DNA of 64,000 nt from Meiothermus sp. (lineage in GTDB: Bacteria; Deinococcota; Deinococci; Deinococcales; Thermaceae), in contig NZ_BPIJ01000001.1 in the NCBI RefSeq assembly GCF_026004055.1, forward strand, positions 1,054,001 to 1,118,000, given 5' to 3'. The notes under the pieces were generated by a model. It was not told where the DNA came from and did not search any database. It saw nothing but the letters and a program-made list of their open reading frames with translations. The position numbers and the translations under genes were made by a program. Shown piece after piece: positions 46,886 through 51,322 of this stretch (position 1 is the first letter of the stretch; each line of letters begins with the position of its first letter).

Positions 46886-47305
46886 TCAGACCTGGCTCAA
46901 AACCTGCAAGAGCTCCCGGCCATATTTTTGGGCCTTGACCTTACCAAAACCCTTAATCTCGCTCAGCTCGGCAGGGGTTTGGGGGTTGCTCTTTAGAATG
47001 GCTTCCAGCTCTGCATTGGTAGCAATCACATAAGGGGGAACGCCTTCTTCCTTGGCCTTCTGGCTGCGCCATTTGCGAAGCGCTTCGAAAGCCTTGCTGT
47101 TGGTGGTTGCTGCAGGTTCAGAGGCTTGGGTACTTGTGGACACGTTGGCCTCGCCCTCGTAGAACACCAACACACTCCAGAAGGGCACCTCCCCTGCTAC
47201 CAGGCTGCTTGATACCTGGATGGGCATCACCTGAGCCAAAAACCGATTCAGCCGCTCGAGGTCTTTCGCATGATCGAGCCGCAGCATAAAGGTCTGGCAT
47301 TGCAT
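46886..47305 (-). CDS. HRDC-domain protein
   Basis: Length is 139 residues. Residues about 70-139 form an HRDC domain (AFEALRKWRSQKAKEEGVPPYVIATNAELEAI, TPAELSEIKGFGKVKAQKYG), the helical nucleic-acid-binding module of RecQ and RNase D, here without a helicase or nuclease. The N-terminal 55 residues (FMLRLDHAKDLERLNRFLAQVMPIQV) are of unknown fold. TAAACT (47317-47312) lies 6 nt before the ATG, suggesting a leaderless mRNA. It is divergent from the GH13-HhH gene, sharing 138 bases of control region. Confidence 0.85.
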   Translation of the reverse strand: MQCQTFMLRLDHAKDLERLNRFLAQVMPIQVSSSLVAGEVPFWSVLVFYEGEANVSTSTQASEPAATTNSKAFEALRKWRSQKAKEEGVPPYVIATNAELEAILKSNPQTPAELSEIKGFGKVKAQKYGRELLQVLSQV

Positions 47306-47443: not shown

Positions 47444-50400
47444 ATGAGCTATCAGCCAGGTTTGGGTGCCTTTGAATTTCACGTTTCCAAAAGCGCACGG
47501 GACTACTATCAGTTCGACCTTTCGCTGTTTTCCCTCAGCGGCAACGTGGTTTTTGCCAACTTCGAAGCGGCCCGGCGGTTTGCCGCAGCCATGAATGCCA
47601 AGCGCGACCTGTTGCGCCACCCGGAGCAGGCCGTGAGCGCCGGCCAGATTAATGCCATGGGCCTGATTGACGAGATGCTGCACTTGGTGGTGCGACAGTA
47701 TGTGGAGCAGCATCCGGGTGTGATGCAGCAAGCGCTTTCTACCCTGGAACAAAGCCTCGAGCCAGACGAGGTGGAAAAAGCCCTGCGTTCGTTTGCCAGC
47801 GAGTTTCCCCCGATTCGGGTTTACCGGGGCGAGATGAGTCTGGAAGCGTACCTGGCCGATGTCACCGAGGGCCGTTCCAACCGCGAAATTCTGCTGGAAG
47901 AGATGCTGATGCTGTGGATGGCCAATGCCAACCCGGCTTTCGCCCCTTTTAGCGAGTTGTTTGATGATAGCAGCCTGGAGCGCACCACCGCCTATCTACC
48001 CATCATCCAGAGCCTGGAAACCTTCTTTGAAGGCCAACCAGCCTTTGCCGAAACCGGCCTTTCACTCTTCAAGACCCTACGGCTACCGGCGCTGGCGCAC
48101 CCGGACTCCCTCGAGGCCCAGCTTCGGCTCTTGCTCGAGCGCTTTGGGGGCAGCCTGGGTCGCTTCTACCACCGGATGCTCGTCAGCCTGGACGTAATCC
48201 GCGAGGAGGGGCGCTCCTTTGCGGTACCCATCCACTTCGACCAGCCGGGCGGTGGGGGCGGGGAAAGCGAGCTGCTGGATGTGCGGCGACTAACCCTGGA
48301 ACCCGAACCCGAAGCCTTTAGCCCCGACCTGGACTGGATGCCCCGGGTGGTGCTGATAGCCAAAAACACCTACGTCTGGCTGGATCAGCTCTCCAAGAAA
48401 TACCGCCGCGAGATCAGAACCCTCGACCAGATTCCCGAGGAAGAGCTGGCACTCCTGCAAAGCTGGGGTGTGACCGGCCTGTGGCTGATCGGGCTGTGGG
48501 AGCGCAGCAAGGCTTCCCGGCGCATCAAACAGATGATGGGCAACCCCGATGCGGTGGCCTCGGCCTACTCGCTCTACGACTATGTGATTGCCCAGGATTT
48601 AGGCGGCGAAGCAGGGCTCGAGGTGCTCCGGCAAAAAGCCTCCCGGCACGGTATCCGCCTGGCCTCGGATATGGTGCCCAACCACACCGGCATCGACGGG
48701 CGCTGGGTCATGGAACACCCCGACTGGTTCATCAGCCTCCCCTATCCTCCCTACCCGAACTACACCTTTAATGGGCCCGACTTATCGGAGGACGCACGGG
48801 TGGGTATCTTCCTGGAAGACCACTACTACGACAAGTCCGACGCAGCGGTGGTGTTCAAGCGGGTGGATCGCGAGACAGGTGAGACCCGCTACATCTACCA
48901 CGGCAACGACGGCACTGCCATGCCCTGGAACGACACCGCTCAGCTCAACTACCTACTACCCGAGGTACGCGAGGCAGTAATCCAGACCATCCTGCACGTG
49001 GCCCGGCAGTTTCCCATCATCCGCTTCGATGCGGCCATGACCCTGACCAAGCGCCACATCCAGCGGCTGTGGTGGCCCGAGCCGGGCGGCTCGCCCTGGG
49101 GGGCCTCTATTCCCAGCCGGGCCGAGCATGCCATGACCAAAGAACAGTTCGATGCCGCCATGCCGCAGGAGTTCTGGCGCGAGGTGGTAGACCGGGCCGC
49201 TGTAGAAGCCCCCGACACGCTCTTGTTGGCCGAGGCCTTCTGGATGATGGAGGGCTACTTTGTGCGCACCCTGGGGATGCACCGGGTCTACAACTCGGCC
49301 TTCATGAACATGCTGCGCGACGAGAAGAACGCCGAGTACCGGCAGATCATGAAAAACACCCTCGAGTTCGAGCCGGAAATACTGAAGCGTTTTGTCAACT
49401 TTCTCAACAACCCCGACGAAAAAACCGCCGTGGAGCAGTTTGGTAAGGGCGACAAATACTTTGGGGTGATGACCCTATGCGCCACCCTGCCGGGCCTGCC
49501 CATGCTGGGCCACGGGCAGGTGGAGGGCTTCACCGAGCGCTACGGCATGGAGTACCGGAGGGCCTACTACGACGAAACCCCCGACCAGGGCCTGATTGAC
49601 TACCATTACCAGCAAATCTTTCCCCTCCTCAAGAAGCGCTACCTATTTGCCGAAGTGGAGAACTTTGTGCTCTACGACGCGCTGGCTGGAGAAGCCGTTA
49701 ATGAGGATGTGTTTGTCTACTCGAACCGGGCCGGTAGCGAACGGGCGCTGGTGGCCTACCACAACAAAAACGCCCATGCCTCGGTCTGGGTGCGGCGCTC
49801 GGTTGCACAGCCTTTCAAGACCGGCCAGGGGCGCGAAACCCGGCAGGTGGGCCTGGGCGAGGGGCTGCAACTGAGCTTTGACCAGCGTACCTTCAGCATT
49901 TTCCGCGACCAGGTTACGGGCCTCGAGTTCATCCGCAACAACCAGGAACTGCACGAAGAGGGACTGTACCTCGAGCTCGGCCCCTACCAGCGCAAGGTGC
50001 TCCTGGACTGGCGCGAGGTCTACGACCACGACGGCACCTACGCCCGGCTGGCCCAGATGCTGGAGGGAACCGGGGTGCCCAGCCTGGACGAAGCCCGGCA
50101 GGAACTGTGGCTGGAGCCCATCCTGCGGCCCTTCCGCGAACTGGTGAACCCCACCCTATTCCGCAAGCTGTTGCAAGGCGACAGCGTGCTGAACCAAGCC
50201 CTGCGGAAAGAAGTGCAAGGCAAGCTGCTGGCGCTGTACAGGGGCGTTGACCAACATCTGGGTGGCAAACCTGCCCTGTTGCCGGTACAGCAAGTGCTGG
50301 GCCGCCTGGAAGGGGCGCTAAGGGTAGCGGAGCGTGATGACCTGGTCACCAGCGGTGCCCTGCTGGGCTGGGTTTTCATTCATGGGCTGGGCAAGGCCGA

Positions 50401-51322
50401 GGAGAGCCGCGCCCGACTCGACGAATGGCGCCTAGGGCGTGTTCTGGAGCAGACCCTGGGCGAGATGGGCCTAGATGAAGCAGATGCGCGGCGAGCGGTA
50501 AGTCTGACCCGGCTACTCATGGCGCATTCCGAGTTGGCGCAAAATCCGATCCAATTGGTTCAGCAGATGCCAGAGCTGCTCCAGGATCCCGAAGTGCAGG
50601 GTTTTTTGAAGGTCAATCGCTTCGACGGTGTAGTGTACTTTAACCGAGAGGCTCACCAGGTCTGGCTCGAGGGCCTGAGCCGGATGGCTCTGGTCTTGGC
50701 CGCTGCCGAGGGCGAATCCCCCACCCAGCTCGCCAAGAAACGCAAAGCCTGGTCGGCCCTGAGGGCAAAACTAAGCAAGGCTGCCGAATCGTCGGGTTTT
50801 GTAATGGATCAATACCTGGCGCGAATTGCGCGGAAAGCCACCCCGCGCAAGGCCGGGGCTGCGGAGCGCACCAGAGCTCGAGCCTCCGGCAAGTCCGCAG
50901 ATTCTGGGGCCGCGAAAACCAAAGCGCCTCGAAAGGCTTCGGCAAAAAAAGCTTCCTCTGCCCCCACAAAAGCGGCCACATCGAAAACGGAAGCCTCCAA
51001 AGCCGAAAAGCCCAAAACCAAAGGCCCGGCTTCATCGGCCAGCAAAGCCAAGCGTTCCCCAACCAAACCCTATCCCGATGACCTAACCCGCATCAAAGGG
51101 ATTGGGCCGAAAATCTCGGCAGCCTTGCAAGCGGCAGGCATCACCACCTTTGCCCAGCTGGCCAAGGCCAAACCAGAAACCCTGAAGGCCGCCCTGGCCG
51201 CCGCCAATCTGCGTTTTGCCCCCAGCCTCTCCACCTGGGCCGAACAGGCCGCCTACCTGGCCAAAGGTGACGAGAAAGGCTTTGCCGCTTACGCGCAGAC
51301 CCTCACCACCGGGCGGGAGTAG
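47444..51322 (+). CDS. Giant GH13 (alpha-amylase family) protein fused to a Lys/Ala-rich tail and helix-hairpin-helix domain
   Basis: Length is 1292 residues. Residues 1-300 are an uncharacterised helical domain. A GH13 barrel spans about 305-830: region I SDMVPNHTG (His414), region II IIRFDAAMT (nucleophile Asp529), region III LLLAEAFWMME (acid Glu597) and a candidate region IV FLNNPDEKT (Asp658). The triad therefore looks intact. Residues about 830-1120 are helical and unassigned. Residues about 1125-1208 are a histone H1-like low-complexity tail of Ala, Lys, Ser and Pro. Residues about 1210-1262 hold DDLTRIKGIGPKISAALQAAGI, a helix-hairpin-helix of the DNA-binding type. There is no signal peptide, so the protein is cytosolic. 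A glycan enzyme carrying a nucleic-acid-binding tail is unusual; the substrate is unknown. Confidence 0.85.
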   Translation: MSYQPGLGAFEFHVSKSARDYYQFDLSLFSLSGNVVFANFEAARRFAAAMNAKRDLLRHPEQAVSAGQINAMGLIDEMLHLVVRQYVEQHPGVMQQALSTLEQSLEPDEVEKALRSFASEFPPIRVYRGEMSLEAYLADVTEGRSNREILLEEMLMLWMANANPAFAPFSELFDDSSLERTTAYLPIIQSLETFFEGQPAFAETGLSLFKTLRLPALAHPDSLEAQLRLLLERFGGSLGRFYHRMLVSLDVIREEGRSFAVPIHFDQPGGGGGESELLDVRRLTLEPEPEAFSPDLDWMPRVVLIAKNTYVWLDQLSKKYRREIRTLDQIPEEELALLQSWGVTGLWLIGLWERSKASRRIKQMMGNPDAVASAYSLYDYVIAQDLGGEAGLEVLRQKASRHGIRLASDMVPNHTGIDGRWVMEHPDWFISLPYPPYPNYTFNGPDLSEDARVGIFLEDHYYDKSDAAVVFKRVDRETGETRYIYHGNDGTAMPWNDTAQLNYLLPEVREAVIQTILHVARQFPIIRFDAAMTLTKRHIQRLWWPEPGGSPWGASIPSRAEHAMTKEQFDAAMPQEFWREVVDRAAVEAPDTLLLAEAFWMMEGYFVRTLGMHRVYNSAFMNMLRDEKNAEYRQIMKNTLEFEPEILKRFVNFLNNPDEKTAVEQFGKGDKYFGVMTLCATLPGLPMLGHGQVEGFTERYGMEYRRAYYDETPDQGLIDYHYQQIFPLLKKRYLFAEVENFVLYDALAGEAVNEDVFVYSNRAGSERALVAYHNKNAHASVWVRRSVAQPFKTGQGRETRQVGLGEGLQLSFDQRTFSIFRDQVTGLEFIRNNQELHEEGLYLELGPYQRKVLLDWREVYDHDGTYARLAQMLEGTGVPSLDEARQELWLEPILRPFRELVNPTLFRKLLQGDSVLNQALRKEVQGKLLALYRGVDQHLGGKPALLPVQQVLGRLEGALRVAERDDLVTSGALLGWVFIHGLGKAEESRARLDEWRLGRVLEQTLGEMGLDEADARRAVSLTRLLMAHSELAQNPIQLVQQMPELLQDPEVQGFLKVNRFDGVVYFNREAHQVWLEGLSRMALVLAAAEGESPTQLAKKRKAWSALRAKLSKAAESSGFVMDQYLARIARKATPRKAGAAERTRARASGKSADSGAAKTKAPRKASAKKASSAPTKAATSKTEASKAEKPKTKGPASSASKAKRSPTKPYPDDLTRIKGIGPKISAALQAAGITTFAQLAKAKPETLKAALAAANLRFAPSLSTWAEQAAYLAKGDEKGFAAYAQTLTTGRE

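Follow-up and report, generated by a model that had tools for sequence, protein, structure and literature searches.

Tethering of storage granules to the nucleoid has been described for polyhydroxybutyrate (PHB), whose granules are held there by PhaF, PhaM and PhaH. In PhaH, an HhH (helix-hairpin-helix) phasin of Caulobacter crescentus, the N-terminal part acts on the granule, and nonspecific DNA binding through the C-terminal HhH is reported, together with positioning of the PHB granule (PMC13052382). The C-terminus of Haloferax PhaC consists of a disordered region and an HhH (PMC12028471). For polyphosphate a tether has been proposed: AlgP, a histone H1-like granule protein with a basic C-terminal tail of KPAA type, is required for even spacing of the granules, and chromosome tethering has been suggested as its mode of action by the authors (PMC9239181). 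The present analysis concerns a gene at positions 47444-51322 of a 64,000-nucleotide stretch of Meiothermus sp. DNA (contig NZ_BPIJ01000001.1, the whole stretch being referred to as the window), predicted to encode a cytosolic protein of glycoside hydrolase family 13 (GH13) that ends in a basic linker and a homologue of the PhaH HhH. The module is of a known kind; its carrier here is unexpected. By analogy with PhaH and AlgP on other granules, the tail may tether glycogen to the nucleoid, a reading to which a rough probability of 0.42 is assigned.

The gene and its parts, in window coordinates, are as follows.

47444..51322, + strand: GH13-family protein with C-terminal linker and HhH tail, 1292 amino acids plus stop
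47444..48214, + strand: N-terminal helical region, residues 1-257, conserved in the GH13 family
48329..50017, + strand: GH13 catalytic barrel and beta domain C, residues 296-858, from Pfam PF00128 and structural alignment
49028..49030, + strand: catalytic nucleophile Asp529, motif RFDAAM
49232..49234, + strand: catalytic acid/base Glu597, motif LLLAEAFW
49415..49417, + strand: third catalytic residue Asp658, motif NNPDE
50036..50833, + strand: C-terminal helical region, residues 865-1130
50819..51076, + strand: basic linker rich in Ala/Lys/Ser/Pro, about residues 1126-1211, differing among relatives in both length and sequence
51077..51319, + strand: HhH module under purifying selection, residues 1212-1292, DDLTRIKGIGPK...

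The open reading frame (ORF) is uninterrupted and begins with an ATG at 47444, immediately preceded by a purine-rich stretch. The Pfam Alpha-amylase profile (PF00128) matched residues 334-698 with 32.8 bits (cut-off 22). In an AlphaFold model of the protein (mean predicted local distance difference test, pLDDT, 84), residues 296-858 aligned with AmyB (4gkl) at Z 24.3 with a root-mean-square deviation of 3.2 over 401 residues, and a Z of 22.7 was obtained with GlgE (5lgw). The barrel and domain C are thus shared with GlgE, AmyB and TVAII-type GH13 enzymes (Z 22-24 over about 400 residues), although identity is only 16-20% and the alignments stop short of the N- and C-terminal helical regions and the tail. 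With the full protein as query, no PDB sequence was matched at E<=1e-5. A Pfam search matched no family at residues 1-257 and 865-1130, both helical in the model. All three catalytic residues, which an earlier note made from the sequence had read as an intact triad, show no variation across 57 homologues; the same holds for R527, two residues ahead of the nucleophile. The usual region IV motif of GH13 enzymes is N-H-D; in this protein it reads N-N-P-D-E, and proline takes the place of the histidine throughout the family. As the same note had stated, a hydrophobic export segment is absent: the 19-residue Kyte-Doolittle mean peaks at 0.94 within the first 60 residues and at 1.23 over the whole protein. 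On its sequence, the product is a cytosolic GH13 protein. In one Meiothermus genome (M. hypogaeus record, L003:5001-8899, the same as L127) the gene is found in two ORFs of 363 and 985 amino acids, for which a frameshift or a sequencing error would account.

The arrangement of an Ala/Lys/Ser/Pro stretch followed by an HhH was borne out. The linker of the window protein is 86 residues long with a net charge of +21, and residues 1212-1256 scored above cut-off with both HHH_5 (PF14520; 27.6 bits, cut-off 27) and DUF4332 (27.9 bits, cut-off 23.2). A hairpin motif, GhG, lies between two helices, its G-I/V-G being invariant or nearly so in 25 tails, and helices are predicted on both flanks with a model pLDDT of 74-86. 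A structure search with the tail returned HhH units of RadA, NusA and DNA polymerase, all weak and none at E<=0.001. The ratio of nonsynonymous to synonymous substitutions (dN/dS) was determined region by region between the window gene and six relatives. The HhH gave values of 0.12-0.35, compared with 0.08-0.13 in the core and 0.22-0.29 in the C-terminal helical region; in the linker, whose length varies from 12 to about 103 residues across Meiothermus, they were 0.5-0.9 where estimable. Because dN/dS of the HhH is low and the linker is variable in length and sequence, the HhH is, by these estimates, the selected element and the histone-like stretch a tolerant basic linker; the histone-like tail proposed earlier is real as a basic stretch but is not what is conserved. 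The HhH is net basic in 17 of 18 GH13 tails and in all four tails of the branching enzymes described below, a charge that on the GH13 tail is compatible with DNA binding.

Searched alone, the tail matched the NCBIfam model of phasin PhaH (NF045508) with E=1.5e-10 at positions 171-232 of 234, which is the C-terminal HhH of the model. The full protein reached 39 bits against a cut-off of 250, with only the tail matching. The N-terminal part of PhaH is a PHB-binding phasin and not a GH13 domain, and the window genome gave no PhaC_N match; as far as these profiles indicate, the GH13 protein is not a phasin but at most an analogue. AlgP, which resembles it in the basic tail, differs in that no enzyme domain is reported and in acting on another polymer. 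Another parallel lies in the same bacterial family, where glycogen branching enzymes of the GH57 type, containing GH57 and BE_C domains, end in a linker and an HhH in two Meiothermus genomes and in both genomes of genus g3.

L184:757-2883, - strand: tailed GH57 branching enzyme
L185:721-2883, - strand: tailed GH57 branching enzyme
L183:1198-3174, + strand: tailed GH57 branching enzyme
L112:1-1686, + strand: tailed GH57 branching enzyme

In the tail-bearing genera every such enzyme found, four in total, has the tail, and two of the four belong to a genus without the GH13 gene; Thermus branching enzymes are without it. In Thermaceae, the GH13 and GH57 proteins are the sole soluble enzymes found to be tailed. 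They are unrelated to each other in the catalytic domain, and their HhH modules are only about 35-45% identical. The branching enzyme of Thermococcus kodakarensis carries C-terminal HhH repeats that are dispensable for activity.

A genome scan confirmed at least 561 relatives of the GH13 protein, of which the best 80 loci were analysed. These come from Chloroflexota, Deinococcota, Spirochaetes, Acidobacteria, Calditrichota, Bacteroidetes and others, and are mostly about 50-60% identical in the best segment. The family is large, spread over several phyla and apparently uncharacterised. An HhH C-terminus is found in 11 of the 80 loci, all 11 of them in Deinococcota. Among 111 Deinococcota genomes surveyed, 58 have the GH13 gene, and it carries the same in-frame tail in all 18 genomes of Meiothermus, the genus of the window, which rules out a frameshift or an assembly join as the origin of the tail. 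The earlier concern that orthologues might commonly lack the tail holds for most of those outside one clade and fails within the genus. Genus g3 gave no GH13 match, and neither the tail nor GH13 was matched in the 28 genomes of genera g4 (taken to be Thermus) and g5, the remainder of the family. In a tree of the catalytic domain, in which L130 and L134 were read as HhH bearers from their loci, the bearers group together in a single clade (23 rows, support 99), and the sister genus g2 is nested within. Given that topology, the simplest history would be one gain, in Meiothermus and Deinococcales metagenome-assembled genomes (MAGs), and one loss, in g2.

Strongly basic C-termini, defined as a 40-residue window of net charge >= +10 within the last 150 residues, were seen in 29 of 89 family members versus 9 of 321 neighbouring proteins; the rows are related and so not independent, but the lineages are nonetheless several. 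Basic tails without HhH occur in separate lineages of the tree, namely the Anaerolineales short forms, two Trueperaceae branches, Caldithrix, a Bacteroidetes MAG and Spirochaetales. The possibility that the basic tails of the family always bear an HhH was therefore discarded, since the tree places the HhH in one clade only. In the short forms of Anaerolineales (~930-980 amino acids; L043, L047, L050, L052, L053, L060, L065, L067, L069, L075 and L080) the C-terminal helical region is missing and the strongly basic tail comes directly.

Of 92 genes lying near GH13 in the family, nine encode GH77 4-alpha-glucanotransferase, more than any other Pfam family, with GH57/DUF3536 in four and another alpha-amylase in two. 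This neighbourhood, seen in other phyla, points to alpha-glucan metabolism. The window genome encodes glgA (GT5) and a glgC-like gene, close to each other on another contig. As these are present and a PhaC_N match is absent, its carbon store, judged from gene content, is likely to be glycogen; storage of PHA (polyhydroxyalkanoate) was considered and rejected on the missing PhaC_N. In Spirochaetes, the GH77 gene stands immediately upstream of GH13 in an apparent operon (L049:2939-4912, + strand, and equivalents in other loci).

The alpha-glucan neighbourhood, the HhH tails on GH57 branching enzymes and the homology of the tail to PhaH together argue for the tether. The selection on the HhH, its basic charge on both glucan enzymes and the frequency of strongly basic C-termini in the GH13 family also count in its favour. 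The homology, the selection on the HhH and its charge are established by sequence. In the proposed mechanism, an intracellular GH13 enzyme of alpha-glucan (glycogen or maltodextrin) metabolism would have gained a flexible basic linker and a PhaH-like HhH in the Meiothermus/Deinococcales lineage. Its catalytic part would most likely keep hold of glycogen while linker and HhH attach to DNA irrespective of its sequence, so that the enzyme, and probably also its glycogen particle, would be tethered to the nucleoid and spread across it. What is inferred is that the substrate is glycogen, that the ligand is DNA and that the tail serves to position granules. More tentatively, glycogen in the Thermus-Deinococcus group might be tethered to the nucleoid through a PhaH-type HhH on either GH13 or the GH57 branching enzyme.

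Several observations weigh against the tether. The linker is only 12-14 residues long in some Meiothermus, the tail can be lost, as in g2, where GH13 is present without it, and most of the GH13 family has no HhH. In the window genome itself the neighbours of the gene are not glycogen genes. Presence of glgA hardly discriminates (54 of 58 Deinococcota genomes with GH13, 42 of 53 without), and was set aside as a test of a glycogen link because nearly all genomes have it. The strongest point against it comes from the other carriers of the module. The HhH alone matched the C-terminus of the NCBIfam NuoE model (E=1.6e-11) and the C-termini of the ribosomal L21 and S2 models, and a profile search of PDB sequences gave a reaction-centre O chain and a complex I subunit with an HhH domain of this type. 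Of 38 genomes of other phyla that encode GH13, 12 showed the module, its carriers there being membrane proteins and some others; no further glycogen enzyme was recognised among them. The carriers in Chloroflexota include SH3-containing proteins, possibly exported; several small single-span membrane proteins of that phylum (L212-L219, L231) end in the same HhH module. Carriers located in genomes of Deinococcota include the following.

L142:2999-5338, + strand: transmembrane (TM) and long coiled-coil protein with two HhH units, in the window genome
L167:706-1758, + strand: ribosomal protein L4 with an Ala/Lys or charged linker and HhH tail, in a genome of family f3
L175:1489-3240, - strand: ribosomal protein S1 with an Ala/Lys or charged linker and HhH tail, in a genome of family f5

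A TM/bacterial Ig-domain protein is encoded directly after the first of these. With such a range of carriers the module is mobile and promiscuous, and DNA need not be its ligand.

Presence of the module on membrane, respiratory and ribosomal proteins also fits protein docking. The tail would then bind other HhH tails or a common partner and place the enzyme at a scaffold or membrane instead of on DNA, an explanation that is somewhat unlikely but carries real weight. It is the main competitor of the tether, and a possible partner would be the membrane-anchored coiled-coil protein of the same genome, whose last HhH shares 63% identity with the GH13 tail but is acidic. Most of the other carriers are not basic, the HhH being neutral or acidic on six coiled-coil carriers, whereas the tails of GH13 and the branching enzymes are consistently basic and mostly follow very basic linkers. 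In addition, 9 of 18 genomes of the genus show a single tail match, that on GH13, so that there the coiled-coil partner is either missing or too diverged to detect. Basic Lys/Ala/Pro tails bind many polyanions, and the tail might accordingly act as a general binder of RNA, ribosomes or polyphosphate with no preference for the nucleoid. Such a role is improbable. In its favour, the module is attached to ribosomal L4, S1, L21 and S2, and AlgP, whose tail is of KPAA type, is found in association with polyphosphate granules (PMC9239181). Against it, the HhH carried by L4 and S1 is itself acidic, so that nucleic-acid binding there is not obvious.

A less probable explanation again is that the tail is an extension for stability or solubility without a specific ligand, harmless or of help in thermal stability. 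The poor conservation of the linker and the loss in g2 would suit it, but the HhH is under purifying selection comparable to that of the C-terminal helical region and is retained in every genome of the genus. The reading that the enzyme acts on a nucleotide-linked sugar, offered in the earlier note, or on one bound to nucleic acid found no support. Only the joining of a GH13 core to a possibly nucleic-acid-binding tail in one protein speaks for it. GH13 retaining enzymes act on alpha-glucosides, the neighbouring genes in other phyla encode GH77 and GH57 alpha-glucan enzymes, and the chemistry is independent of the HhH because most homologues lack it, which makes this reading very improbable.

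The gene next to GH13 had also been taken as a sign of a nucleic-acid connection.

46886-47305: free-standing HRDC gene (Pfam HRDC, E=1e-23)

The HRDC gene is real, but it is not a conserved neighbour: the 80 homologous GH13 loci contain no HRDC homologue. Orthologues elsewhere are about 41 kb to 730 kb from GH13 where both are on one contig, and otherwise on other contigs. An orthologue was undetected in 5 of the 18 Meiothermus genomes with tailed GH13, and both g3 genomes have one with GH13 absent. HRDC was accordingly rejected as part of a GH13 system, and its adjacency in the window is, on these comparisons, coincidental and uninformative. The idea of an alpha-glucan enzyme at the nucleoid, put forward earlier partly on this gene, loses that argument, and is weakened by the membrane and ribosomal carriers; what it retains is the gene neighbourhood, the branching-enzyme tails and the homology to PhaH.

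A literature search within the available library found nothing on GH13 with HhH, nor on HhH on branching enzymes. In its available text, the organelle-positioning review (PMC13052382) leaves glycogen unmentioned, and neither the nucleoid nor HhH comes up in the accessible part of a 2024 review on alpha-glucan enzymes of prokaryotes. If the tail of the GH13 protein works as its PhaH relative does, glycogen would join the stores that are tethered. PHA, polyphosphate and glycogen would then be three chemistries handled by convergent tails, and the distribution of glycogen would be based on the nucleoid, with the same trick used on unrelated enzymes. The finding also draws attention to a large and apparently uncharacterised GH13 family that is conserved in several phyla.

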